From NCBI RefSeq assembly GCF_920984735.1, contig NZ_CAKLBU010000022.1, positions 1 through 64,000 of the forward strand: 64,000 nucleotides of DNA, in the 5' to 3' direction. The notes under the pieces were generated by a model. The model worked only from the letters and a program-made list of their open reading frames with translations. It was not told the DNA's origin and ran no database searches. Below are positions 12,899 through 26,165 of this stretch, in pieces. Position 1 is the first letter of the stretch. Each line of letters begins with the position of its first letter. Origin of the DNA: Pedobacter sp. Leaf250. GTDB lineage: Bacteria > Bacteroidota > Bacteroidia > Sphingobacteriales > Sphingobacteriaceae. A program made the position numbers and the translations under genes.

Positions 12899-14935
12899 TT
12901 AATTTTTATTAGTAACCGAAAAGGTTTTCTTTTCAGTACCAACACCAGTAATCTTTATAGATTTCCATTTTGATGGTAAAACAGATGGAATTTGAACGAT
13001 GCCTTTATTGGTAATATCCAACCCTCCAAAACCCATCAGCACACTTTGTAAAACGCCGCCTGCGCCAGTAGCAAAATATGGATTAGTGCCACCTTTGGTT
13101 TCTGCAATCACCCTGAATGGTGGGTTCAAGTTTGGCAGGTAGGCTTCATTAAAATATTTATACGCTTTCTCTACATTACCCGTTCTAGCATAAAGCAAAG
13201 CGAAAATTGCATGAGTCATTGCAGGTGTACCTTCATCAGGAATTCTGGTTTCATAATATGCCAAATCATTCAAAATCTGATTTTTATCGGTAATGGTTTT
13301 TAAAGGATAGGCAAGCAAATTAACGTCGCCTTGTTTTATGCCTTCGCCCTTGTAAGTTGCATGTTCTTTGGTTACCCCATCCGGAAATTTTAATACAGGG
13401 ATGTTGTTTTCAACCAAAGTCCAATCTATATTTTGAGGCAATCCTAAAACGGCAGCAGCAAGGTTTGCATTTTTTAGGTTTAGTATAGCAGCTGCATTGG
13501 TAAAGGCATTATTATCTACATTTTCTGCCCATTCGTCTGCTGCAACCACATTTTTAATATCAAATTGATTTGGTCCATTTCGCTCTACCCTGCTTGCCCA
13601 AAATTCGGCTGTTTGTGATAAGATTGGCCATCCCTTTTCTTTAAGCCAAACTTTATCCTGGGTAACGCAATAATAATTCCATGCCGCTAAAGCAACATCT
13701 GCCGAAATGTGGTGTTCAAAAGGTCCGCTTAATGCCCAAACCGGGGTTTCTTCAACTCCTGAATCTGCACTTTCCCATGGGTACATTGCACCCTTGAAAC
13801 CATGAGAGAATGCATTTTTTCTTGCCGGTTCCAATCTTTCGAATCGATACTCAATTAAAGATTTCGCGATTTCAGGATGTAGTACCAATAGTGCCGGGAA
13901 CATCCAGATATCCGTATCCCAGAAAACATGGCCATTATAACCTAATCCAGATAAGCCCATTGGCGATAATGAATACGATGTTCCGGCACGAGAAAATGAG
14001 GTAAGGTGATAAAGCATACTGCGTACGTCTTGTTGTGCTTGCGGATCTCCATCAATAATAATATCCGATTTCCATAAATCATCCCAGGCTGCATTATGGT
14101 ATTTAATTAATCTATCACGTCCCTCAAGTTTAGCATAAATAGTCATGCGCTCAGCCTCATTAAGCGGGTCTGCATGTTGCGCAGAACTTATTGTACTCCC
14201 AACAACCGTGTAAGTATAACTTTCTCCGGCTTTTATGCTTTTACTAAACTTCATCAAATGGCTGTTATTATCCCACATTTCGTGAATAATTTTAGGCTCG
14301 CTTCCATGTTGCTCATTAAATAAAAAACTATTAGAAGCACACAATTGCAGCTTGCCTGTAGGGCTTTTTGCTGTTGATGTTAATAAGCTTAAAGTTATAT
14401 GGGGCCTGTCAATCTCATTGTAATAATTCTCCACATCGCGAAGTGCATCAGGTGTTTCCATAACACTTGCTGCAGTTAATTTCAAATCTTCGCGGGCGAT
14501 AATGGTTACATCCATCAATACGGTAAAAGGCAAATGGCGTAGTGCATAATAGGTATATTTAATCTCCGCTTTTTTTCCATAAGCCAGTTGCGTGGTAAAT
14601 GCTGCATGCTGCATATCAAGCTGTTGCTGCATATCGCTGGTATTCTGATCATCGAGCCGCTTCCCATCAACTTCCAGGTACATGTTAAGCAAATTGAAAC
14701 CATTTAAAAAATTACTCACACGACCACGTCCATAAGTGTCATAGGTGCCGGCCATCACCACATTTTTTACTTTGAATGGCTGAGGAGAAGAAACAATACC
14801 GATGATCCCGTTTCCTACAGTAATTCCGAAATATTTAGTGGGGTCAATTTTATCGTCACTTATTTTCCAGGGGTCTTGTGCGTGTACAGCACAAGAAATA
14901 ATAACGGTTAAAAGGAAAAGTACGATTTTTCTCAT
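12899..14935 (-). CDS. secreted GH65 alpha-glucoside hydrolase
   Basis: 678 residues with a signal peptide (MRKIVLFLLTVIISCAVHAQ). GH65 (alpha/alpha)6-barrel with NGHVFWDTDIWMFPALL near 335 and the catalytic acid region AADEWAENVDNNAFTN (Glu468). Phosphorylases of the family have a phosphate-binding loop where this protein has IAETKGGTNPYFATGAGG (Glu612), a glutamate suitable as a general base. That predicts hydrolysis rather than phosphorolysis, as in Flavobacterium kojibiose hydrolase, whose catalytic glutamates I recall about four residues later in numbering. Likely substrates are kojibiose, trehalose or related alpha-glucosides. It lies downstream of susD on the same strand, after a hairpin. 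Confidence 0.8.
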   Translation of the reverse strand: MRKIVLFLLTVIISCAVHAQDPWKISDDKIDPTKYFGITVGNGIIGIVSSPQPFKVKNVVMAGTYDTYGRGRVSNFLNGFNLLNMYLEVDGKRLDDQNTSDMQQQLDMQHAAFTTQLAYGKKAEIKYTYYALRHLPFTVLMDVTIIAREDLKLTAASVMETPDALRDVENYYNEIDRPHITLSLLTSTAKSPTGKLQLCASNSFLFNEQHGSEPKIIHEMWDNNSHLMKFSKSIKAGESYTYTVVGSTISSAQHADPLNEAERMTIYAKLEGRDRLIKYHNAAWDDLWKSDIIIDGDPQAQQDVRSMLYHLTSFSRAGTSYSLSPMGLSGLGYNGHVFWDTDIWMFPALLVLHPEIAKSLIEYRFERLEPARKNAFSHGFKGAMYPWESADSGVEETPVWALSGPFEHHISADVALAAWNYYCVTQDKVWLKEKGWPILSQTAEFWASRVERNGPNQFDIKNVVAADEWAENVDNNAFTNAAAILNLKNANLAAAVLGLPQNIDWTLVENNIPVLKFPDGVTKEHATYKGEGIKQGDVNLLAYPLKTITDKNQILNDLAYYETRIPDEGTPAMTHAIFALLYARTGNVEKAYKYFNEAYLPNLNPPFRVIAETKGGTNPYFATGAGGVLQSVLMGFGGLDITNKGIVQIPSVLPSKWKSIKITGVGTEKKTFSVTNKN

Positions 14936-15044: not shown

Positions 15045-16553
15045 TTAGTATCCTGGGTTTTGTACCAAGTTTGGATTACCAAGTTGGTTATCAGGAATAG
15101 GGAAAAGAAGGTATTTTGCTTCACTAGCTGGTTTCTCTTGCCAAGCAGCAAGGAATTTTCCAAAACGAATTAAATCTTGTCTTCTAAAACCCTCCCAGTA
15201 CAGTTCACGTCCACGTTCATCCAGCAATACATCCAAAGTTAAACTCGTTAATGCTGATGCACCTCTCACTGCTCTAAGTGAATTCACTAAAGTTAATGCA
15301 GATGCCGTTTGAGATATCCTCAACTGCGCTTCGGCTTTCATCAACAATACATCAGAATAACGGTAATAAACCCAGTCGTTATCAGGTTTTCTCGAACCTG
15401 AATTGGCATAATCAATAGGATATTTTATTACGCGAATTCCCGCAACCTCCAAGTGGTTAGGGTCGCGTTCGATAATGCTTACTTCTGGAGTAAAAGCTAA
15501 TGGATTGCCTTTTCTATCTTTTAGAGCTGCACCGTTTTGATCAAATTGCTGACCTACTAAAAAACCAACCCTTATTCCAGATACATTGGTTTGACCAGCA
15601 TAAGTTCCGCCTCTTCTTTTATCTGTTGCTTCGAATTTATTATAAAAGTTAGATAATGAAGAGAAGCCATTGTATCCAGCTGGATTTTGATTATAGTGCA
15701 AAGTACACTTCCATTGCCCATCAATATCACTACCATCATTTCCTGCAGTATTTTCTGCAGTAAAAATATTTTCTTTTGATAAAACATTGTTAGTGGGAGC
15801 AAAATTGTCAAAATAATTGGCAGAAAGTACATAACCACCCGTGGCAATTTCATCCGCCAGCGATATAACCTTTGCCATATCGGCGGCATCAAATGTAGGT
15901 GTATTCCGATTTAAGAAAGCACCCTTATTTAAATAAACCTTCATTAACAAAGTTTTTGCAGCATTTTTATTTGCAAAATTTGCTGGCCCATTCGGCAAAT
16001 CAGGGATAATAGCTGTTAATTCATTAATTAGATAAGAGATTTCATCAGCGGCATTTCTAACCTTTGAAGGAAGTGTTACACCTTCACCAGTATCACGATA
16101 AGGAACTTGCCCCCATCCATCTAAAATGGAAAACTGTGCGAAAGCTCTTAAAAAACGTGCTTCGGCTGCTTGTGCTGGAGTAGGGCTAAATCTTAAAACC
16201 GTTGTAGCTGCATAACTTATACTGTTTAGATCTCTAAAAACACCAGATATTCTTCCATCATCTGCTGCCCATTTGTGCAAGTGTAGCGCTCTCCATGCAC
16301 CGTTATCATCCCAATCACCTGCTCTTGTAGGTACTATCGCCTCATCAGAAGTAACTTCCTGCAAAGCAGACCAGTTCCATGGAGCTTGATATGGGCCTCT
16401 CATGGCAATGTACGCCGCAGAAATTAATCCTGGAACATTTCCCTGAGTAAGTGTACCTGAACTTACTTGCCCATTAAGATCTTCATTAAGTTTTGTACAG
16501 GACGAGATCGTAATGGCCATTACTACCAAGCCTAAAATATATTTGTTTTTCAT
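15045..16553 (-). CDS. SusD/RagB family outer-membrane glycan-binding lipoprotein
   Basis: 502 residues. Lipoprotein signal with Cys19 (TISSCTKLNED), then the all-helical SusD fold with TPR-like repeats (LRAFAQFSILDGWGQVPY about 136-153). The C-terminal part has YRYSDVLLMKAEAQLR and RGRELYWEGFRRQDLIRFG, both strongly conserved in SusD proteins. It caps the SusC barrel at the cell surface and binds the oligosaccharide. It follows susC by 15 bases on the same strand. The ligand cannot be read from sequence, but the flanking enzymes suggest a small alpha-glucoside or sucrose-like sugar. Confidence 0.92.
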   Translation of the reverse strand: MKNKYILGLVVMAITISSCTKLNEDLNGQVSSGTLTQGNVPGLISAAYIAMRGPYQAPWNWSALQEVTSDEAIVPTRAGDWDDNGAWRALHLHKWAADDGRISGVFRDLNSISYAATTVLRFSPTPAQAAEARFLRAFAQFSILDGWGQVPYRDTGEGVTLPSKVRNAADEISYLINELTAIIPDLPNGPANFANKNAAKTLLMKVYLNKGAFLNRNTPTFDAADMAKVISLADEIATGGYVLSANYFDNFAPTNNVLSKENIFTAENTAGNDGSDIDGQWKCTLHYNQNPAGYNGFSSLSNFYNKFEATDKRRGGTYAGQTNVSGIRVGFLVGQQFDQNGAALKDRKGNPLAFTPEVSIIERDPNHLEVAGIRVIKYPIDYANSGSRKPDNDWVYYRYSDVLLMKAEAQLRISQTASALTLVNSLRAVRGASALTSLTLDVLLDERGRELYWEGFRRQDLIRFGKFLAAWQEKPASEAKYLLFPIPDNQLGNPNLVQNPGY

Positions 16554-16568: not shown

Positions 16569-19500
16569 TTATAAAGAAAAATTAACGCCAAAATTGAATG
16601 TCCTTGCAGTTGGATATGCGGTATAATCTATCCCTGCTGATGGAACGCCATTTACACTTTTATTTACATTTACTTCTGGATCAAAACCTGTATAGTTTGT
16701 AATTACAAACAGATTTTGTCCATTTACATAAATATTTAATGATTTGATCACTTTTCCAATGTTGCCGATATTATAATTTAAGGTAGCATTAGCCAATTTA
16801 ACATAATCTCCTTTCTCTATGTATCTTGATGAGGCAGCAATTGGATTAGCCAACGATTCTTGAATAGGTAAATCAAGTATACCTGATGAAACGTTTCTAG
16901 AACCCAAGTTAGAGATTGCCAACACTGAATTTGCTGTATTATTATAAATGCTTTGGCCGAATGCACCATTAAAATTAGCACTGAAAGAGAATTTTTTATA
17001 TCTCAAATTTGTGCTTAAACCCAAAATAAATTTTGGATTTGGGTTACCAACGTAGTATTTAGTAAAACCATCATCAGTATAAGAAGAGAAACCATTTGCA
17101 GCTAAACCATTATACTGTCTGGTAAACATGGCAAATAATGGTAAACCGTTTTGAATAACTTCGGTAGTTACATCACTTAAGCCCTGACCACTTAATGAAC
17201 CAGTTTTAATTATACCATCCAGATTTTTAACATTGTTTTTTATGTAGGTTACGTTTCCTCCTAAAGACCATGATAAATTATCTTTTTCGATGATATTGGC
17301 ATTTAAACTCATCTCTACACCTTTATTAACAATTTCACCACTTAAATTCTGCCATGTAACTACATTTCCTTGTTCTGCAGGTACAAATGCTGTTTGAGGA
17401 TATAATAAATCTTTGGTAGTCTTGTTAAAATAATCAATAGATCCGGTCAGTTTATTCCCGAAAAGGCCAAAATCCAAACCAATGTTAGTTTGTTTGTCTT
17501 CTTGCCATTTTAAATTGTCGTTTTGATTATTCAATCCTACTTGTGGGATAGGATCTCCTGCTTTACCTGGTGTTCTATAAACAAAACGTTGTTGAGAAGA
17601 GCCAGATGGGAAATCCTGGTTGCCTGTTTTACCGTAACCTGCCCTAATTTTTAATGTGTTTAACCATTCAACATTAGTAAGAAAACTTTCTTGTTTGATG
17701 TTCCACGCTGCTGCAAATGAAGGAAAATAGCCATATTTGTTATTTGCACCAAATTTTGTAGAACCATCTGCTCTAACTGTTGCTGTTAAAATGTATTTAT
17801 TATCATAATTAAAAATACCTCTGGCAAAATAAGATTGTAGCTCAGTAGTTGGATCGTTACTAGTTACAAAAGTTCTATTCGCCTTTAATGTAGATTCAAA
17901 AGCATCAGTATAGTCTAGCGGCAAATTACCAAATCCTGTTGCAGTATTAACAGCACTTTTGTTTATGAAATTTGAATACTCATAACCAATTACAGCATTA
18001 ACATTTAATTTGGTAGCAATTTCTTTATTGAAGTTTAAGGTATTAGTGAATTGTTGTGTAACCAACTCTGTATTAGAATAACTGGCGTAACCACCTAAGA
18101 AATCACCAGATGGCTGTATTCCCTGTAAATTTAAAGTACTCCTGGTAGATGCTCTTCTAATACCAGTGCTATAATTTACACTTGCTAACATACGGTATTC
18201 TAGCCATGGTGTAATTTTGTAGTAAGGAGATATGCTACCTAAAATAGTAGAAACCTTCGATTTATCGCTGTTTGCGGCTAAAGCTGCTAAAGGATTAATA
18301 GTTGTTGAACCATAATCGATAAATAAGCTTCCATCTGGATTATAGAAAGATTGGGTAGGATTCCAAGCTAATGCCTGGCTAATTAAACTTCCTGTAAAAC
18401 CTGCATCAGTTGTAATAGGGGCAATATTTTCTAAGTACTGATTACTTATCATATTGATATCTAAGCCTAGATTTTTACTCTCCAAGAATTTAAAATTTCC
18501 ATTAAAAGCTGCACTGTACTTTTTAAAATCTGTAGTTTTAACAATACCTTGCTGATCTTGATAACCCATAGAAGCACGGAAAGTATTTCCATTTGCCCCA
18601 CCACTTATACCAATGGAGTAATTTTGATTGTAAGCCGTACGAATAATCTCATCTAAAGCATCAACACTGGTACCAAAATCGCCACTGGTTAAACTATATT
18701 TTCTCAAAGCTGCACGATACTCTTCGCCGGTTAAAACATCCACTCTCTTGGCAATATTACTCACCCCTGCTGATGCGTTAACATCAATTCTCGTATCTCC
18801 AGATTTACCTCTCTTGGTGGTGATTAATACCACGCCATATGCCGCACGTGAACCGTAAATCGCAGTAGCTGACGCGTCTTTTAAAATCTCCATCGATTCA
18901 ATATCTGCCGGATTAATAAAGTTGAGTGGATTACCAGCAGGTGCAGTACCAATACCGGCACTTGTATTTGGTCTGGCAGATCGGCCGTCAAGCGCAACTC
19001 CATCAACTACATAAAGTGGTTGCCCTGTACCTGTAATAGCTGAGTTACCTCTAATTCTTACAGTAGATGCACCGCCTGGTTGGCCACTGTTATTAATCAT
19101 CTGCACACCAGCAACTTTACCTTGTATTAATTGATCAGGCGCAGTCAATGGGCCCTTATTAAAATCTTTTGCAGAGACGGTTGCCGCAGCACCAGTTAGG
19201 TCACTTTTCTTAACCGAACCATAACCAACCACAACAACCCCTTCGAGGTTATTTAATGATGCTAATGTAATGTTGATTAAAGTTTGATTATTAACGTTTA
19301 CTGTTTGGGTTTCGAAGCCAACAAAACTCACAATTAGTTTCGAAGTTGTAGAGGGCACTGTAATTTGGAACTTACCTTCTGCATCACTTTGCGTTCGGGT
19401 ACTTGTACCAGCAACCTGGATAGTTGCACCAGCCATGGGCAGCTTATCATTATCTAAAATCGTTCCTTTAATTACGGTTTGGGCGAAAGCCGTTATACTT

Positions 19501-19601
19501 AAAATGACTAGAAGTAAACTTGGCAGTACAAGTTTCATCAATCTACATAATTTCTGTTTCATAGGTAAAACAGACCAATTACTCGGTAGAGTTAGGTTCA
19601 T
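16569..19601 (-). CDS. SusC/RagA TonB-dependent outer-membrane transporter
   Basis: 1010 residues. The signal peptide is near residues 15-41 (LVLPSLLLVILSITAFAQ), so translation may begin at ATG 19562. A CarboxypepD_reg-like domain (about 43-115, IKGTILDNDKLPMAGATIQVAG) is followed by the plug with VVVVGYGSVKKSDLTGA and the SusC motif IESMEILKDASATAIYGSRAAYGVVLITTK (about 235-264). A 22-strand barrel ends in ARTFNFGVNFSL. It imports oligosaccharides using TonB energy. It sits 95 bases after the kinase gene and may share its transcript, but an ATTTGGTTA half-site at 19616 suggests its own control. Confidence 0.93.
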   Translation of the reverse strand: MNLTLPSNWSVLPMKQKLCRLMKLVLPSLLLVILSITAFAQTVIKGTILDNDKLPMAGATIQVAGTSTRTQSDAEGKFQITVPSTTSKLIVSFVGFETQTVNVNNQTLINITLASLNNLEGVVVVGYGSVKKSDLTGAAATVSAKDFNKGPLTAPDQLIQGKVAGVQMINNSGQPGGASTVRIRGNSAITGTGQPLYVVDGVALDGRSARPNTSAGIGTAPAGNPLNFINPADIESMEILKDASATAIYGSRAAYGVVLITTKRGKSGDTRIDVNASAGVSNIAKRVDVLTGEEYRAALRKYSLTSGDFGTSVDALDEIIRTAYNQNYSIGISGGANGNTFRASMGYQDQQGIVKTTDFKKYSAAFNGNFKFLESKNLGLDINMISNQYLENIAPITTDAGFTGSLISQALAWNPTQSFYNPDGSLFIDYGSTTINPLAALAANSDKSKVSTILGSISPYYKITPWLEYRMLASVNYSTGIRRASTRSTLNLQGIQPSGDFLGGYASYSNTELVTQQFTNTLNFNKEIATKLNVNAVIGYEYSNFINKSAVNTATGFGNLPLDYTDAFESTLKANRTFVTSNDPTTELQSYFARGIFNYDNKYILTATVRADGSTKFGANNKYGYFPSFAAAWNIKQESFLTNVEWLNTLKIRAGYGKTGNQDFPSGSSQQRFVYRTPGKAGDPIPQVGLNNQNDNLKWQEDKQTNIGLDFGLFGNKLTGSIDYFNKTTKDLLYPQTAFVPAEQGNVVTWQNLSGEIVNKGVEMSLNANIIEKDNLSWSLGGNVTYIKNNVKNLDGIIKTGSLSGQGLSDVTTEVIQNGLPLFAMFTRQYNGLAANGFSSYTDDGFTKYYVGNPNPKFILGLSTNLRYKKFSFSANFNGAFGQSIYNNTANSVLAISNLGSRNVSSGILDLPIQESLANPIAASSRYIEKGDYVKLANATLNYNIGNIGKVIKSLNIYVNGQNLFVITNYTGFDPEVNVNKSVNGVPSAGIDYTAYPTARTFNFGVNFSL

Positions 19602-19615
19602 AATGGTTTAATTAA

Positions 19616-19624
19616 ATTTGGTTA
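19616..19624. promoter_or_regulatory. candidate regulator half-site ATTTGGTTA upstream of susC
   Basis: ATTTGGTTA is identical to part of the palindrome at 25141-25160 and to a half-site at 24970. It lies 15 bases before the susC start. Only the half-site is conserved, so binding is a hypothesis. Confidence 0.35.
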
Positions 19625-19696
19625 GAAAATGTATTATTACTTTAGTAAATCATCGGGTTGTTTTTTAGGGTGGTTTAGTCATCATATTTAATTGGT

Positions 19697-20632
19697 TTAG
19701 GGTGATATTGTGTGATTTTCTTTTTTATATAATGGAAATGGCTTTTCAACTTTTAACCGGGCTACTTCTAGTCCTTTATTTACACAATCATCAATAGACA
19801 TTTCGAGAATGAAAGCAGATAAAAACCCAGACCAGAAAGCATCTCCAGCACCGGTAACGCCTCGAATAGTTTCAACCGGAATGGCATTTTTATATCTCCA
19901 ACTTAACTTATTTGTTTTATACCACACCCCATGCTTACCGCAGGTGAGGCAGATTGCCGAAGTATTCAGATGATCTAGCCATTCAACTGATTCTTCTACA
20001 CTGAGAGATTTACCAACATAACGTTCAAGATCATCAACACTAATTTTTAACAGTGGAGTCAGTTGGAGAATTTTTTTAAAAACGTCCTTCCCATCATCAT
20101 CCTGCCAGATTGATGGGGCAAAATTCCAGTCAACCGAAATGGATTTCCCCATTTGATGCGCTTTGGTTAATGCGGTCATAATATTACTTCGGGCAGGCTC
20201 CCTACTTAATGCGAATGCTGTGGTATGGACAATTTCCGCAGCTTGAATGAGCTCATCATCCACCCTTCTTATGGCGAAGTCGGCATTGCGGTAAGGGATA
20301 AAATCCGGACTATGGTTATTTTTAGCTACAAGCACAACGCTGGTTTGCCGGTGTGGTGCCTGGTGTATATAGCGGTCTGATAAACCGATTGCTTTAAGTT
20401 CATTAATCAGGAAAATACCCAGATTATCCTCACCAACGGTTGAAACTAAATCTGCATCTACGCCCAGCCATTTTAGGTTAGCGCAGAGATTCGCTGAGCT
20501 GCCTCCCTGAATAGTAGAAAATTGTGAAGCTACCGCAAGCGATTCGATATTTTCATCTGAAATGATATCGACCAATAATTCGCCCACCACTAAAATTTTT
20601 TTCCCTGAAATATTATTTTCCGAATCCATCAT
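19697..20632 (-). CDS. PfkB-family carbohydrate kinase, probable fructokinase
   Basis: About 311 residues. The ribokinase/PfkB fold is shown by the N-terminal GELLVDII, the glycine-rich QGGSSANLCANLKWLG (about 44-59) and the C-terminal signature TGAGDAFWSGFL (about 260-271), whose Asp is the catalytic base. Its place next to an invertase-like GH100 gene and a sucrose-type permease points to ATP-dependent phosphorylation of fructose released in the cytoplasm. ATG 20632 overlaps the GH100 gene by 20 bases and is preferred to an in-frame TTG at 20641. Other sugars are possible. Confidence 0.82.
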   Translation of the reverse strand: MMDSENNISGKKILVVGELLVDIISDENIESLAVASQFSTIQGGSSANLCANLKWLGVDADLVSTVGEDNLGIFLINELKAIGLSDRYIHQAPHRQTSVVLVAKNNHSPDFIPYRNADFAIRRVDDELIQAAEIVHTTAFALSREPARSNIMTALTKAHQMGKSISVDWNFAPSIWQDDDGKDVFKKILQLTPLLKISVDDLERYVGKSLSVEESVEWLDHLNTSAICLTCGKHGVWYKTNKLSWRYKNAIPVETIRGVTGAGDAFWSGFLSAFILEMSIDDCVNKGLEVARLKVEKPFPLYKKENHTISP

Positions 20633-21818
20633 TTCTATCAAAAGTTAAAATTTTTCTAAAATCATTACTTGTTGCCTGTTCGGCTATAACTGCTCCAGCG
20701 GCACTCCAGGTGCATTTTGGCACACCGCAAGGCTCCAGACTGGTTCCATGAAAACATTCATTGAATAAATCTGCTTTACCATTCGAGCGGTGAATTTCAG
20801 AAAGGACTTCCTGAGCCAGGCTCGTTTTTTGATGAAAATGCAGCGCTGCAACCAGCCAGCCATTCCAAACTGGCCACAAACCACCATTATGAAAATAATG
20901 TGGTTTGTTTCGAAAGGCATAAGCATAATTATCTTTAAGTTCGTTCATATCCGAATCATCATCCAGAATTGTAGGATAAAATGATGGCAATAGCGATTGC
21001 CTTTGTTTGTATGTCTCCTCAATATATTGCAAAACCTTGCGATTTTGATTTTCATCACCTAAGCCTAGAAAAAGAGCGAAGGTATTGGCCTGCAAATCAA
21101 AGTACTTATATATTCTCCCCGGGTTGAAGCCCATTAGCCAGTATTCTTGAGAAAAATCCCTCAACTGATGAATTAAATTGGGAGAATAGGTTTTTTCAGG
21201 ATGATCATTGATCCAGTAATTCGATCGAATTGAATTGGTAATATCGGCGATCTTGGCTTCCCAATCTGCATGGAATGATAATTTGGAAGCTAAGCGCAAT
21301 GCCCAAAGTCTTAACAACTGGTCAAATAGAATATAGCCATGCTGAATGTATTCATCGGCCCAATCACCACTTTGTGGCACATAAATTAAATGTTTTCCAT
21401 TAAACTCCCAGCTGTTTAAAAGGGTAAAACACTTGCCAACTTCATGCTGATATTTATTCCAAAGATGCTCATCATCAGTAAGTAAGGTATATGCACATAA
21501 ACCAATCACTGCCCACGATGGATTATCGGCCCTGCCGGAAGTTCCACCATAACTAACTGCACCGTCTTTCGGTGAAACATTAGAGGGCATGAATCCGTCA
21601 GGATGCTGATGTTCGAAAATTGTGATTAAGGTATTTTTTGTGGTTTCAATAAGCGATTTATCGCCACTCAATAGCGCAGCAATGCCCGTAATAACCCCAT
21701 CTCTGGTCCAAACGCGTTTATAGTTATCTTGCTCCTCTACAGATGCCACAAAACCATATGGGGTAACTGCCTCTCGCAAGAGACCTAATGCATGGTGGTA
21801 TGATTTCGAATCGAACAT
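20613..21818 (-). CDS. GH100-like invertase / glucosidase
   Basis: 401 residues, no signal peptide, so cytoplasmic. An (alpha/alpha)6-barrel protein with NYKRVWTRDGVITGIAALLSG (about 28-48), HPDGFMPSNVSP, SGDWADEY (about 151-158) and the C-terminal GTSLEPCGVPKCTWSAAG (about 360-377). The arrangement resembles GH100 neutral/alkaline invertases and the glycogen-debranching glucosidase group. With a fructokinase-like gene downstream and a sucrose-type permease upstream, hydrolysis of sucrose or a related fructoside or glucoside is the most economical reading. An amylo-1,6-glucosidase-like activity is the alternative. Start and stop overlap both neighbours, so it is translationally coupled. Confidence 0.65.
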   Translation of the reverse strand: MFDSKSYHHALGLLREAVTPYGFVASVEEQDNYKRVWTRDGVITGIAALLSGDKSLIETTKNTLITIFEHQHPDGFMPSNVSPKDGAVSYGGTSGRADNPSWAVIGLCAYTLLTDDEHLWNKYQHEVGKCFTLLNSWEFNGKHLIYVPQSGDWADEYIQHGYILFDQLLRLWALRLASKLSFHADWEAKIADITNSIRSNYWINDHPEKTYSPNLIHQLRDFSQEYWLMGFNPGRIYKYFDLQANTFALFLGLGDENQNRKVLQYIEETYKQRQSLLPSFYPTILDDDSDMNELKDNYAYAFRNKPHYFHNGGLWPVWNGWLVAALHFHQKTSLAQEVLSEIHRSNGKADLFNECFHGTSLEPCGVPKCTWSAAGAVIAEQATSNDFRKILTFDRNDGFGK

Positions 21819-23167
21819 TATATATCGGCTATTTTTTCATTTTTTTTGATCTGCAACACCATCAAAGCGGCGATAACAATCAAAACTCCTGCAAACATGA
21901 TTGCATTTTCCGGGCGATGGCCAAGCAGGTAGCGGTAAACATATTTAAAGGTGATGGTCTCAAGTAACATCGGCAGCACAATGAACATATTCAAGATCCC
22001 CATAAAAATACCGGTCTTTGCTTTCGGAATACTTCCTGCAAGCATGGCATAAGGCGTTCCCATCATGCTGGCCCAGGCCACCCCTAAACCCACGATTGGA
22101 ATGACAAGTAAAAAGGGATGGTGAATCATCGGCAAACAGATCAAACAAAAGCCTCCAAAAAGCAAACTCATCAGATGAACCTTTTTTGCGGTAATTTTCC
22201 TGGCGAAAAATGCCAGTGGAAATGCCACTAAAAAGGTTACCACATTGTAGCCCCCGTTTACCGTTCCGGTAAGCAACTGAGCAGAGGCAAATCCATCAGA
22301 TGCTGCATCGCTGGTATTGTAAATGGTTCTGGCTAAACATAGGGTAATAAATTGCCAGTAAATAAACATGGCGTACCAGTTGAATAGGTAAACAACGCCA
22401 AGTTTTTTCATCATTGTGGGCATTACTTTAAAAGCCGCGATAATATCACTGAATATCCTTCCAATGCCACCTGTTTCCTTTTTTATTTCCTCAATCTCTT
22501 CAACAGACAGCGGCGTCTCCTTTGTGGTTAAACAACTATACATAATAGAGCCGATTGAAACAACGCCACCAATAAAAAAGGCTGCATAAGTGGTATAGGG
22601 TATGTTATTGTCACTTCTTGCATTCATACTGATTAGCCCTGCTGTGATGAGTATGCCCGGGGTAAGGTTAGCCAGGGTAATACCTAAACCGGTAAAAAAG
22701 CTTTGAGTTAAAAACCCAAGAGCATGCTGCTCTGAAGGAAGTTTATCGCTCACAAAAGCCCGGTAAGGTTCCATCGTGATATTATTGCCGGCATCAAGTA
22801 TCCATAAAATCCCAGCAGCCATCCAGATTGAACTGCTGTAAGGCATGGCGAAAAGACAGATACTGCAAATGATAGCGCCAATTAAAAAATATGGCCTGCG
22901 TCTTCCAAACCTGCTGGTGGTTTTATCGCTCATTGCACCAATAATGGGCTGAATGATCAAGCCTGTCATTGGTCCTGCTAAGTTTAACAAAGGAATCTGA
23001 TCGGCATTGGCGCCCAAATAGGAATAAATGGGTGTCATATTGGTTTGCTGCAAACCAAAACTATATTGAATCCCAAAGAAACCAAGATTCATCGCAATGA
23101 TAGCGCTAAAATTTAGTTTCAAACCTGATGAAGGCTGATGAACTTTTTCTGCTTGAGCTACAATCAT
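21818..23167 (-). CDS. MFS sugar permease, SLC45/GPH-like
   Basis: 449 residues with about 12 transmembrane helices. It begins IIAMNLGFFGIQYSFGLQQTNMTP, and the loop between helices 2 and 3 has SDKTTSRFGRRRPYFLIGA, the RxGRRRP pattern of plant-type sucrose and SLC45 proton symporters. It should move a disaccharide across the inner membrane with protons. Its stop overlaps the GH100 start by one base, and its start is 7 bases after the GH13 stop, so the genes form one transcription unit. Confidence 0.85.
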   Translation of the reverse strand: MIVAQAEKVHQPSSGLKLNFSAIIAMNLGFFGIQYSFGLQQTNMTPIYSYLGANADQIPLLNLAGPMTGLIIQPIIGAMSDKTTSRFGRRRPYFLIGAIICSICLFAMPYSSSIWMAAGILWILDAGNNITMEPYRAFVSDKLPSEQHALGFLTQSFFTGLGITLANLTPGILITAGLISMNARSDNNIPYTTYAAFFIGGVVSIGSIMYSCLTTKETPLSVEEIEEIKKETGGIGRIFSDIIAAFKVMPTMMKKLGVVYLFNWYAMFIYWQFITLCLARTIYNTSDAASDGFASAQLLTGTVNGGYNVVTFLVAFPLAFFARKITAKKVHLMSLLFGGFCLICLPMIHHPFLLVIPIVGLGVAWASMMGTPYAMLAGSIPKAKTGIFMGILNMFIVLPMLLETITFKYVYRYLLGHRPENAIMFAGVLIVIAALMVLQIKKNEKIADI

Positions 23168-23174
23168 ATAAAGT

Positions 23175-24911
23175 TTAGTTAAGCTTAAAAACTAAAGCCT
23201 GCCACGGTTTTAGGTTAATTTCTTTATCCGTAAAATTTGGCCCATTGTTATAATTATTCATGAGCACCTTTGCCGCTGAAATTTTAATATTTTGATCCAG
23301 CGGATAAGAGAACGCTTTAGCTGAAAAATTTAAGACGATCAGCATCTTCTCCTGTCCATGTGTTCTGGTGTAGCAGTATACATCTGGGTTTTCAATATCA
23401 AATACCTTATAGTCGCCATATACAAGCACTGGAGATGATTTTCTTAAGGCAACCAACTTTTTGAAATAATTAAGCTCACTTAATAGATTCTTTTCTTCGG
23501 TAACAACATTTACCGTTTTGTAGTTCGGGTTTACTTTTATCCATGGTTTGCCCGATGTAAAACCAGCGTTTAATGATGTATCCCACTGGAATGGTGTACG
23601 GGTATTATCTCTGGAGATAAACTTTTGTTTATCCATAAAAACCTGTACATCAACACCTTTTGCTTTAATGCTTTTGTAAGCGTTAATGGTTGCGATGTCT
23701 CGGTAATCATCAATGTTGTTAAATTTGATGTTCGACATGCCCAATTCATCGCCATTAAAATAAAATGGAGTGCCCCGCATGGTCATAATCAGTGTGGTTA
23801 AAAGTTTTGAAGAATAACTTCTGAACTGTGGGCTATCATTCCCATACTTGCTAACCATCCTGGGTACATCATGATTAGCCAGAAAGATGGCTAACCACCC
23901 CTTCTCAGCAAAGGATTGATCCCACTTTGTGAAGGCTTTTTTCAGATCGGTAAGCTTATATCCTGCGGGATCGTTCCCGATATCCATGATCTCAAAATGA
24001 TAAGCCATATTTAACTCCTGCCTGTCTTCATCAACCAGAGCGTGAGCATCTTCTAATGTACTGCCAGCACCCTCAGCAACAGTCATAATGTTATACTTGC
24101 TGATCACAGTTTTGTTCATCTCCTTTAAATATTGATGAAGATTTGGACCCATGCCGTAATATTTGATAATGTCTTTTTCGTAACCTTCAGGATATTTTTT
24201 CCAAGTAGTATCTTTAGAAACATATTGGAAAGCATCCATCCTCAAACCATCAATGCCTTTGTCGAGCCAAAATTTCATCATATCGTAAACCTCATTACGA
24301 AGTTTTTCATTCTCCCAGTTCAGGTCAGGTTGTTTTTGCGAGAAATAATGTAGGTAGTAAGATTTTGTAGTTGCATCGTACTTCCAGGCATCACTGTTAA
24401 CATCAAAGAAACTATAACGTGGTGTAGGTTTGCCCTTTTCTTCGGGCCACCAATGGTAATAATTTCGGTAAGGATTGGTCCGTGATGATTTAGCTTGCTT
24501 AAACCATTCATGCTCATCACTGCTGTGGTTGAGCACCATATCTAAAATCAATTTAATCTTGCGTTGATGTAAGCCGGCAAGCAACTCATCGAAATCCTTC
24601 ATGGTGCCAAACTCTTTCATGATGTTTCTGTAATCACTGATATCGTAACCATTATCATCATTTGGAGAAGAAAAAATCGGATTCAACCAAACAGCATCTA
24701 TGCCCAGGCTTTTTATGTAATCGAGTTTTGAAATAATACCCTTTATATCACCAATCCCATCTCCATCACTATCTTTAAAACTACGTGGGTAAAGCTGGTA
24801 CACAACAGCTTCTTTCCACCAGGCCGGCTGATTGTTCTGAGCTTGTTGAGAATTGCCCCTCAAAACAAAACATATTAGGAATATAAAAACTAAGCCAATG
24901 GAATTTCTCAT
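23175..24911 (-). CDS. secreted GH13 alpha-glucosidase
   Basis: 578 residues with a signal peptide (about 1-21, LICFVLRGNSQ). GH13 barrel with WWKEAVVYQLYPRSFKDSDG near the start and the metal loop DSDGDGIGD (about 48-56). The nucleophile Asp is in GIDGLRMDAFQY, the acid Glu in TVAEGAGS and the third carboxylate in LANHDVPRM. The closest pattern is oligo-1,6-glucosidase/alpha-glucosidase (subfamily 31 or 23 style). It would cut glucose from imported oligosaccharides in the periplasm. As first gene of the minus-strand operon, divergent from lacI, it is probably under direct repression through the palindromes at 25091-25160. Confidence 0.88.
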   Translation of the reverse strand: MRNSIGLVFIFLICFVLRGNSQQAQNNQPAWWKEAVVYQLYPRSFKDSDGDGIGDIKGIISKLDYIKSLGIDAVWLNPIFSSPNDDNGYDISDYRNIMKEFGTMKDFDELLAGLHQRKIKLILDMVLNHSSDEHEWFKQAKSSRTNPYRNYYHWWPEEKGKPTPRYSFFDVNSDAWKYDATTKSYYLHYFSQKQPDLNWENEKLRNEVYDMMKFWLDKGIDGLRMDAFQYVSKDTTWKKYPEGYEKDIIKYYGMGPNLHQYLKEMNKTVISKYNIMTVAEGAGSTLEDAHALVDEDRQELNMAYHFEIMDIGNDPAGYKLTDLKKAFTKWDQSFAEKGWLAIFLANHDVPRMVSKYGNDSPQFRSYSSKLLTTLIMTMRGTPFYFNGDELGMSNIKFNNIDDYRDIATINAYKSIKAKGVDVQVFMDKQKFISRDNTRTPFQWDTSLNAGFTSGKPWIKVNPNYKTVNVVTEEKNLLSELNYFKKLVALRKSSPVLVYGDYKVFDIENPDVYCYTRTHGQEKMLIVLNFSAKAFSYPLDQNIKISAAKVLMNNYNNGPNFTDKEINLKPWQALVFKLN

Positions 24912-24969: not shown

Positions 24970-24980
24970 ATATTTGGTTA
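24970..24980. promoter_or_regulatory. candidate half-site ATATTTGGTTA upstream of GH13
   Basis: An 11-base exact match to the left half of the 20-base palindrome at 25141-25160, located 59 bases before the GH13 start codon. Confidence 0.4.
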
Positions 24981-25090
24981 TTTAATGAAATAGCAGCTAG
25001 CCAAATGGTTTGTACTGAGGTTATTTCCTTATTATTATATGAAGATAGCGGTATAAATTATCTAAAAATATAGAAATACATCATTTTTCT

Positions 25091-25128
25091 CCGCAAACGT
25101 TTGCGGTAACATTTGCGGAAATGTTTGC
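25091..25128. promoter_or_regulatory. LacI-type operator pair
   Basis: CCGCAAACGTTTGCGG (25091-25106) is a perfect 16-base palindrome with the central GCAAACGTTTGC typical of LacI/PurR-family operators. GGAAATGTTTGC (25117-25128) matches that core at 10 of 12 positions. The two centres are 24 bases apart, so cooperative binding on nearly one helix face is possible. They lie between the divergent GH13 and lacI genes. Confidence 0.7.
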
Positions 25129-25139
25129 TGTGGAAAACT

Positions 25140-25160
25140 TATATTTGGTTAACCAAATAT
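25140..25160 (+). promoter_or_regulatory. -7 element overlapping a 20-base palindrome
   Basis: TATATTTG (25140-25147) is a perfect -7 element for the lacI gene. It overlaps ATATTTGGTTAACCAAATAT (25141-25160), a perfect 20-base palindrome that ends 6 bases before the start codon at 25167. A protein bound here would block both polymerase and ribosome, suggesting autoregulation. It differs from the GCAAACGTTTGC operator upstream, so a second regulator may be involved. Confidence 0.65.
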
Positions 25161-25166
25161 GTTTAG

Positions 25167-26165
25167 ATGAGACAAAACCCAACTTTAAAAAAAATTGCTG
25201 AGCGGCTCAATGTAAGTATATCCACTGTTTCTAGGGCCTTAAAGGATCATCCGGATATCTCACCTGAAACCGGTCGAAAAGTAAAGGAACTTGCAGAATT
25301 ACTCGAATATGACCCTAACCCATATGCCGTAAATCTTCGTACCCATAGTAGCAAGGAGTTTGCAATAGTTGTACCGAGCTTATCCAACTTTTTTTATCAT
25401 TCCTTTATTAGTTCAATTGAAGAGGAAGCGAGGATTTATGGTTATTCCGTAATGATTTACCGTTCTTCAAACGATCCAACAATTGAACAGGAGATTCTGA
25501 AAAGCTGCAGGCACAAGCGGGTATCAGGAATTTTTATTGCAATTACTTCAGAAACAGATAACATGGAGCCATTTTTGAAAATGGATGTTCATGGTATTCC
25601 TGTTATTTTCTTTGATAAAGTTCCGCAATATGAATCATGCAATAAAATATGTGTAGGCGATGAACATGCTGCCATGCTGGCTGCCGAAGAGATCATAAAA
25701 AAAGAAATTCCAAACGTACTGGGGATATTTGGAGATCAAAACATGTCAATAACTAAAGCCCGTTTAAAGAAGTTCGCCACCGTTCTTCAACAAAATGGAA
25801 ACGATATTAACCTGAAAACGGTACATGCATGTAGTTCTGCAGAAGCCGAACAAATTACTTGGTCATTACTACCAGATTGGGTGGGTAAAAAATTTACGAT
25901 ATTCTGTATGAGCGACGAGATTTTAGCTGGTGTCATGAAAGCGATACAAAGAAAAGGCCTAAGCACACCAACAGATTTAGGCTTGATCGCTATTAGTGAT
26001 GGCATGATTCCACAACTCTTTTATCCGGAAATTACCTATGCAGAAACCAGCGGAAGCAATCTGGGTAAACTGGCATTTAACAGAATGATGCGATGTATTG
26101 CTGGGAGTTCTTTTGCACAAACAATTATAGATGAATCCAAACTCGTTGTTGGCGGTTCAATATAA
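25167..26165 (+). CDS. LacI-family transcriptional regulator
   Basis: 332 residues. The N-terminal LacI helix-turn-helix is TLKKIAERLNVSISTVSRAL (6-25), followed by the hinge helix region (about 45-60). A periplasmic-binding-protein-like effector domain (60-330) includes FAIVVPSLSNFFYHSFI, GIPVIFFDKVP and GLIAISDG. It most likely represses the divergent GH13-permease-GH100-kinase-SusCD operon until a sugar or its derivative binds. Palindromic operators lie directly upstream, including one covering its own -7 element. Confidence 0.9.
   Translation: MRQNPTLKKIAERLNVSISTVSRALKDHPDISPETGRKVKELAELLEYDPNPYAVNLRTHSSKEFAIVVPSLSNFFYHSFISSIEEEARIYGYSVMIYRSSNDPTIEQEILKSCRHKRVSGIFIAITSETDNMEPFLKMDVHGIPVIFFDKVPQYESCNKICVGDEHAAMLAAEEIIKKEIPNVLGIFGDQNMSITKARLKKFATVLQQNGNDINLKTVHACSSAEAEQITWSLLPDWVGKKFTIFCMSDEILAGVMKAIQRKGLSTPTDLGLIAISDGMIPQLFYPEITYAETSGSNLGKLAFNRMMRCIAGSSFAQTIIDESKLVVGGSI

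Follow-up and report, generated by a model that had tools for sequence, protein, structure and literature searches.

Members of the LacI family of transcription factors are mostly repressors, and operators of the PurR/CcpA type within this family are palindromes with a CAAACGTTTG core and a central CpG. Control through an arrest peptide is exemplified by TnaC. In the Bacteroidota, Shine-Dalgarno sequences are little used and A-rich leaders are favoured.

Control by small RNAs (sRNAs) has been described in Bacteroides, where FopS sRNAs are reported to block translation of susC genes and PUL glycoside hydrolase genes by pairing with their initiation regions, an activity antagonised by the RRM protein RbpB (PMC11697453), and GibS of Bacteroides thetaiotaomicron represses a GH13 gene (PMC7366714). 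CutF, a complete exported protein whose end is rich in prolines, is a further case of arrest-peptide control (PMC9973294). Another candidate RNA of Pedobacter, Pedo-repair (RF01715), has been tabulated (PMC2864571).

The window analysed here is a stretch of 64,000 nucleotides from Pedobacter sp. Leaf250 (contig NZ_CAKLBU010000022.1, positions 1 to 64,000). It contains a control region dividing lacI on the plus strand from a minus-strand row of genes in the order GH13-MFS-GH100-like-PfkB-SusC-SusD-GH65:

25167..26165, plus strand: LacI-family regulator (HTH PF00356, 44.6 bits; Peripla_BP_1, 63.5 bits)
23175..24911, minus strand: GH13 hydrolase, first gene of the row divergent from lacI
21818..23167, minus strand: MFS transporter; best NCBIfam resemblance to a sucrose/proton symporter, below cut-off
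20613..21818, minus strand: GH100-like (invertase-type) protein; Pfam above cut-off, no NCBIfam match
19697..20641, minus strand: PfkB sugar kinase; best NCBIfam resemblance to fructokinase, below cut-off
16569..19601, minus strand: SusC TonB-dependent transporter
15045..16553, minus strand: SusD-like lipoprotein
12899..14935, minus strand: GH65; NCBIfam kojibiose hydrolase, 1184.5 bits against a cut-off of 800

The kojibiose hydrolase assignment, together with the sucrose-symporter and fructokinase resemblances, suggests that this is probably an alpha-glucoside/sucrose-type uptake locus. It can be observed separately that a GH65 enzyme of the kojibiose hydrolase type sits within a sucrose-type uptake locus. 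The regulator, in which the recognition-helix stretch reads STVSRAL, has matches at E<=1e-40 in 57 of 251 family genomes, with 25 (its own included) at a minimum of 52% identity. Eighteen orthologous loci were aligned, comprising the window and the 17 closest of 22 retrieved loci (L032-L047 and L052); sixteen are from Pedobacter and one from a Sphingobacteriaceae MAG (same-genus G182). Five distant loci, L048-L051 and L053, all lacking TAACCAAAT, were left out of this alignment. The observations cover the anatomy of the region, its conservation, spacing and orientation bias, and its complementarity to a candidate RNA relative to controls. Scanning the window with Rfam gave no match at gathering scores.

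The palindromes described in the initial annotation are all present in the control region: the perfect 16-base LacI-like palindrome CCGCAAACGTTTGCGG at 25091-25106, a second match GGAAATGTTTGC at 25117-25128 that agrees with GCAAACGTTTGC at 10 of 12 positions with the centres 24 bp apart, and the perfect 20-base palindrome ATATTTGGTTAACCAAATAT at 25141-25160, which does overlap the lacI -7 element, its left half being the -7 box at 25140-25147. The recurring half-sites were likewise correctly placed, as ATATTTGGTTA before GH13 (24970-24980) and ATTTGGTTA before susC (19616-19624). A third LacI-like site, lying between the two that had been named, was overlooked. Palindromes are not rare by length alone, with seven of at least 16 bp in a 400-kb sample, two of them at least 20 bp, and four of at least 16 bp in the window itself. 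Near matches to the 20-bp palindrome with up to three mismatches are not commoner than those to its reversed control (131 vs 178), and the corresponding numbers for the LacI palindrome are 13 and 12; the 16-mers ATTTGGTTAACCAAAT and CCGCAAACGTTTGCGG each have a single exact occurrence in the 4.8-Mb genome. What exceeds chance is the conservation across the 18 orthologous loci.

This conservation takes the form of a 70-bp island amid divergent DNA, containing or adjoining the following elements:

25091..25106, unstranded: LacI-type site 1, CCGCAAACGTTTGCGG; perfect palindrome around a central CpG, near-invariant over the 18 loci
25104..25117, unstranded: LacI-type site 2, CGGTAACATTTGCG; overlaps site 1, 12 bp on, 2-5 mismatches to the site-1 consensus
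25116..25129, unstranded: LacI-type site 3, CGGAAATGTTTGCT; 12 bp past site 2 and shortly before the lacI -7 box, 3-4 mismatches
25035..25047, minus strand: putative -7-like box of the GH13 operon, TATCTTC at 25047-25041, in near-invariant columns; promoter predicted
25140..25147, plus strand: lacI -7 box TATATTTG, present in 18/18 loci; left half of the 20-bp palindrome
25150..25160, plus strand: lacI leader element TAACCAAATAT, which makes up the right half of the 20-bp palindrome; predicted to pair with an sRNA

Taken as 14-base units, the three LacI-type sites start at 25092, 25104 and 25116, and their 12-bp pitch is kept in all 18 Pedobacter loci. The same step is found in L048, L049, L050, L051, L053, L015, L016, L018, L022 and L023, where the arrays consist of two or three sites, some of them weak. 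Other copies of the CAAACGTTTG core were listed in the genome search; a two-site array with at most one mismatch is confined to this locus, and two more places in the genome have one at two mismatches. Measured from the GCAAACG of site 1, the distance from this site to the lacI -7 box (start to start) is 47 bp in every one of the 18 loci. The equivalent distance to the GH13 -7-like box is 52 bp in 17 loci and 51 bp in one, and the neighbouring intervals vary (63-74 and 47-127). A scan for sigma-70 type promoters found nothing, and TATCTTC is an imperfect -7; an A at 25035, invariant in the alignment, fits the predicted start of the GH13 operon, which would place the centre of site 1 at about -63. 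Sites 2 and 3 fall within the lacI core promoter.

It is very likely that the 16-bp palindrome and the site next to it serve as LacI-family operators for the regulator encoded alongside. Features shared with autoregulated operators of this family are an adjacent gene with HTH and sugar-binding domains and a palindromic site conserved upstream of its orthologues. The palindrome with its CAAACGTTTG core and central CpG, the adjacent cognate gene and the STVSRAL helix all resemble the PurR/CcpA-type arrangement, from which the locus differs in having three overlapping sites at a fixed 12-bp pitch that is kept in more distant relatives. The array is of a known kind, and its pitch is unusual; no paper on this locus was found in the literature on LacI operators in Bacteroidetes. 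If the protein made at 25167 binds this compact array, neighbouring sites are unlikely to be filled simultaneously, because at a 12-bp step adjacent sites have two bases in common and two recognition helices would come to lie in one groove; occupancy of sites 1 and 3 together, or of site 2 alone, would be expected instead. Bound protein would sit at the core promoter of lacI, leading to autorepression, and at a constant phase approximately 63 bp upstream of the predicted GH13-operon start, leading to activation or at least phased control. Autorepression combined with phased, probably positive control of the GH13 operon is the favoured reading of this arrangement. As a side observation, the mutual exclusion of overlapping LacI sites at a 12-bp pitch may make a switch.

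The 20-bp palindrome falls into two parts. Its left half contains TATATTTG, which we take to be a -7 box on the TAnnTTTG consensus; TAACCAAAT follows after two free bases and is exact in 14 of the 18 loci. The inner left bases, 25148 and 25149, are nearly free (0.62 and 0.46 bits), whereas their mirror bases are conserved (C25153, 2.00 bits; A25152, 1.39 bits), and the right half is altered beside an intact left half in L034, L039, L045 and L052, with the element broken outright in two of these (L034 and L052). A palindromic operator needs mirror-image conservation of both half-sites, and this is absent; the palindrome is perfect in only two of the 18 loci, the window and one other species. 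As the two halves vary independently over the 18 loci, the palindrome would not be an operator, and it is best read as the lacI -7 box abutting an oriented leader element. Against this, the lacI element touches the -7 box and could itself be core promoter. The initial annotation had proposed two regulators, or a LacI protein with two classes of site; the part of this that stands is a second regulatory layer marked by the recurring half-site, and the part that lacks support is a second palindromic DNA operator, rejected on the unequal conservation of the halves, or a second LacI site class. Reading the GH13-side half-site as a -7 box was also rejected, the TA of TAnnTTTG not being conserved there.

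The right half of the palindrome recurs at two further places in the locus:

24970..24980, minus strand: GH13 leader element TAACCAAATAT, about 59 nt upstream of the start codon; 5' UTR site predicted to pair with the sRNA
19616..19625, minus strand: susC leader element CTAACCAAAT, separated from the ATG by 14 nt; likewise predicted to pair with the sRNA

At lacI, GH13 and susC alike, it has the sense orientation of the downstream gene. On the GH13 side, 16 of the 18 loci have an exact TATTTGGTTA, which reads TAACCAAATA in the transcript. The element lies 47-127 nt before the start codon, outside the normal initiation region; the 10-bp block found about 59 nt before GH13 in the window is conserved despite its distance from the start codon. 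The susC leader has CTAACCA in 16 loci and CTTACCA in the other two (L046 and L047). Among same-genus SusC orthologues the element was present in 17/20, the remainder being L224 and L225, which lack it, and L226, which is a truncated frame. None of the ten leaders fetched for SusC orthologues of other genera contains CTAACCA, although ATAACCAT occurs near the start in L228 and L229, and TTAACCAC far from the start in L227.

The level of enrichment of this element across the genome was also studied. The initial annotation had named a random frequency of the half-sites before unrelated genes as a refuting outcome. In this check, TAACCAA is present in 14 of 50 susC leaders of 60 nt; among 277 other genes it precedes 2, and among the 192 of these with a free leader it precedes none (Fisher 5e-11). 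The background was drawn from 20 stretches, six of which (C7, C8, C10-C13) had been chosen for pattern hits, which can only raise the count for other genes. The 50 SusC genes are those over the family cut-off among 58 matches, with the start codon taken as the first ATG of the longest ORF. TAACCAA is the top-ranked 7-mer of these leaders (1.07 expected) and the best of its 105 permutations, and it occurs 14 times in the sense and once in the antisense orientation. The remaining 36 leaders lack it, and the related words AAACTAA and TAACTAA are likewise enriched. A general leader motif was considered and rejected, TAACCAA not being enriched before ordinary genes in a 400-kb sample.

Thirty of the 49 genomic copies of CTAACCAAAT were inspected. 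Sorted as copies of ATTTGGTTAG, the thirty divide into 14 inside ORFs, ten sense leaders and six other intergenic copies. Outside ORFs, six inspected copies of CTAACCAAAT precede the start of an ORF by 3-20 nt, the ORFs encoding two SusC proteins, a GH2, a pectinesterase, a DUF2961 protein and a fatty-acid-hydroxylase-like protein; three copies close to an ATG but inside ORFs (L157 and L179 sense, L158 antisense) were not counted. The six other intergenic copies are L152, L161, L167, L171, L172 and L181, of which L161 is the sRNA gene described below. L167 and L181 have ATTTGGTTAGAAAAAA directly before an intrinsic-terminator-like hairpin (around position 1500), one of them following a gene judged SusD-like by eye; these may possibly be 3'-UTR-derived RNAs with the same seed. 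A literature search for TAACCAAA found no paper on this locus.

One of the inspected copies, read on the opposite strand, lies in a predicted RNA gene:

G000 contig C4:239624-239715 (L187, L257), outside the window, minus strand: predicted sRNA gene of about 80 nt, between convergent genes and followed by an intrinsic terminator

The 241-nt region around it has matches in 113 of the 119 genus genomes, often two to five times, and the matches listed overlap the RNA. Alignment of 40 copies reveals a conserved core with divergent flanks, preceded by a predicted promoter in which the A and the TTTG of a -7-type box are invariant. In this genome the core is AUAAAUAUUUGGUUAGUAUUUAU-AAAGUUUAGGUUAGUUGAU, and the transcript would start near AUAAAUAUUUGG. 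Among 38 distinct rows of the alignment, TGGTT and TTAGTTGAT are present in all 38 and TTGGTTAG in 35, and the second AGGTTAG (GGUUAG in the RNA) is exact in 28. In the RNAalifold consensus, UUGGUUA occupies the loop of a 5' hairpin, which is followed by an unpaired stretch with the second GGUUAG and then by a terminator stem. Changes on both sides of a pair are found in 6 of 16 pairs, all of them in the terminator stem (6 of its 8), and two of these six are broken in 5/38 rows each. The single fold has a z of -3.59; in it, the AUAUU part of the seed is held in the 5' hairpin stem, so that pairing must open this structure, and a weak hairpin of 4 bp takes up the second GGUUAG. Upstream of most copies, TAAY/TTAAY words can be seen by eye about 11 bp apart before the -7 box, and are possibly a helically phased activator site.

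A covariance model of this RNA has matches in 51 of 52 own-or-same-genus genomes (the exception being G050), a count that rests on the order of listing, in which same-genus genomes came first; there are 1-5 copies per genome, with one in this genome. Outside the genus, the model detected one match among 199 other family genomes (G051, 47.6 bits), unconvincing on reading, and its four matches in a sample of 395 genomes from the phylum are three Pedobacter and the same weak match in G051. Absence outside Pedobacter is weakly tested by these searches, because 10-17 candidates were scored per genome. A comparison of 19 copies with 4227 Rfam models, of which FopS may not be one, found nothing near a gathering score; there were several sub-threshold matches to unrelated families (best E=0.0008, 29.5 of 97 bits), and RF01715 was not among the matches listed. 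Searching the listings of CC-licensed PubMed Central papers for Pedobacter or Sphingobacteria sRNAs turned up no description of this RNA.

The complementarity between the RNA and the leaders is partly circular, because the RNA was picked for carrying the complement (one of the 30 copies inspected among 49); the non-circular part of the evidence is its conservation as an RNA gene. The GH13 elements, in segments chosen by motif, pair with the sRNA over 10-15 consecutive nucleotides in all 18 loci, and the 20-nt lacI leaders over 6-16 nt (mean 11.3); in 16 loci, a paired run of 8-16 nt passes through the lacI element. Single-base shuffling of the sRNA, repeated 200 times, gave maximum means of 9.4 for GH13 and 9.3 for lacI, while random 20-nt places in the same regions paired over a mean of 7.5 nt, with 7.4% of 540 reaching 11 nt or more. 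The two loci that deviate at the GH13 element, L033 and L042, keep their pairing with the sRNA through G-U. Over the genome, pairing energies of susC leaders differ from those of other leaders by -3.39 kcal/mol, a gap that dinucleotide shuffles of the sRNA (-0.12 +/- 0.73) did not reach in any of 200 cases. In a second genome, of which 1.2 of 5.4 Mb supplied 21 SusC genes, TAACCAA is in 4 of 21 susC leaders (1 antisense) against 15 of 578 others (p=0.003). The energy gap there, computed on 150 of the 578 other leaders, is -2.79, against -0.26 +/- 0.74 for shuffles, with 0/150 reaching it. Counting against this, L034 and L052 have a broken lacI element, the genome of L034 (G185) has the sRNA nonetheless, and the susC element is weaker in L046 and L047. 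The conserved seed is complementary to target initiation regions, apart from GH13, where the site is not at the initiation region.

Taken together, these patterns make an RNA complementary to the half-site better supported as the second regulator than a second DNA-binding protein. The reading we consider probable has LacI controlling transcription and a FopS-like sRNA controlling translation of the regulator, the enzyme and the transporter. The right half TAACCAAATAT, at the predicted start of the lacI transcript, would be a target of this sRNA, encoded elsewhere in the genome, with the GH13 and susC elements as further targets. Pairing would then impede ribosomes from entering the mRNAs of regulator, enzyme and transporter at once, along with those of many further susC genes. 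At GH13, effects on mRNA stability or leader structure may matter more, because some 59 nt separate the site from the start codon.

Alternatively, TAACCAAATA may be a DNA half-site, or asymmetric operator, for a second transcription factor acting as a roadblock just downstream of the start at lacI, GH13 and susC. Its position adjoining the lacI -7 box, its near-perfect conservation as DNA and the perfect palindrome in the window and one other species could all be so explained. Such a factor seems unlikely, though, given the sense orientation of the element, its proximity to the start codons of many susC genes, the lack of palindromy in 16 of 18 species, the GH13 deviants that retain only RNA G-U pairing, and the existence of a conserved RNA gene carrying the complement. 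It is very improbable that the 25167 protein itself recognises two classes of site, the CGCAAACGTTTGCG array and the ATTTGGTTA half-sites: both do lie in one conserved block upstream of its own gene, but the half-sites differ in sequence and symmetry, and the element stands before many susC genes while the array, at up to one mismatch, is limited to this locus. A further possibility is that TAACCAAAT belongs to a translation-friendly, A-rich type of leader common before susC, its match to the conserved RNA being coincidental. The leader preferences of the Bacteroidota and the enrichment of AAACTAA and TAACTAA accord with this; it is nevertheless distinctly unlikely, as TAACCAA is missing from all 192 other free leaders, susC leaders outpair others with the real sRNA and not with shuffled ones, and the GH13 block is conserved far from a start codon.

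With respect to transcription, the competing account is that LacI simply represses the two divergent promoters and that the constant spacing reflects no more than a compact shared control region. This would be typical of the family and is a quite possible, if somewhat doubtful, explanation: site 1, some 63 bp ahead of where the GH13 transcript is predicted to start, is distant for simple repression, and the 52-bp spacing has been maintained through divergent sequence. Phased control from the overlapping operators, with the sRNA as a second layer, is the interpretation retained here.

The Pedobacter RNA resembles FopS in being multicopy and conserved, in having a -7-type promoter and a Rho-independent terminator, and in its complementarity to the leaders of susC and PUL glycoside hydrolase genes (PMC11697453). 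The genome also encodes one RRM_1 protein, as the FopS system has the RRM protein RbpB. FopS differs in having 12-15 copies, as opposed to the 1-5 per genome (one here) of the Pedobacter RNA, and a single-stranded 5' seed stretch followed by a terminator, in place of a seed in a 5' hairpin loop plus a second unpaired stretch; furthermore, the Pedobacter RNA is confined to Pedobacter in the samples searched, and its predicted targets include the PUL's own LacI regulator. GibS is described with seed regions R1 and R2, pairing around start codons and a GH13 target, to which the Pedobacter RNA, with its seed UUGGUUAG, can be likened by description rather than by sequence comparison; GibS is, however, a single sRNA of another class of Bacteroidota (PMC7366714). 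By analogy, the Pedobacter RNA may work like FopS and GibS, which is distinct from membership of either group, copy number and consensus structure being different.

An additional feature precedes susC:

19665..19685, minus strand: mini-ORF ATGATGACTAAACCACCCTAA (MMTKPP-stop) in the PfkB-susC gap, 63 nt before the susC start

Across the 18 loci this mini-ORF varies in length, sequence, last proline codon and stop codon, with the stop 53-63 nt before susC, yet in 14 loci it ends in Pro-Pro-stop (MMTKPP, MKYYPP, MEHLPP, MNPFKPAPP and others). The exceptions are Ser-Pro-stop in L041, PPS-stop in L052 and the lack of a mini-ORF in L036 and L039. Among 215 mini-ORFs in background leaders none ends in PP, and no mini-ORF ending in Pro-Pro was seen before the SusC orthologues from other genera (L227-L236). 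The retention of this ending amid an otherwise variable mini-ORF, and its absence from these background and other-genus leaders, suggests a ribosome-stalling leader peptide. Similar to CutF (PMC9973294) and to TnaC, an upstream ORF with C-terminal prolines precedes a gene whose translation would be controlled; in contrast to CutF, the peptide is of 5-10 residues and ends in Pro-Pro-stop before susC, with stalling predicted. No paper on this locus was found in the literature on susC leader peptides or Pro-Pro-stop.

As a broader and more tentative proposition, which we rate as possible rather than probable, a genus-wide family of Pedobacter sRNAs, most with two GGUUAG seeds, may set the translation of a large share of the SusC proteins and, at this locus, of LacI, the first enzyme and the transporter, with the Pro-Pro-stop peptide as an added check. 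The concrete seed, orthologue set and target list make this idea testable at once. The locus also serves as a caution that perfect palindromes at promoters may consist of a -7 box beside an RNA target. If the interpretation is true, one RNA closes a sugar-uptake system whose transcription LacI controls through overlapping operators, and a separate Pedobacter sRNA family would make RNA control of SusC a recurring solution across the Bacteroidota.
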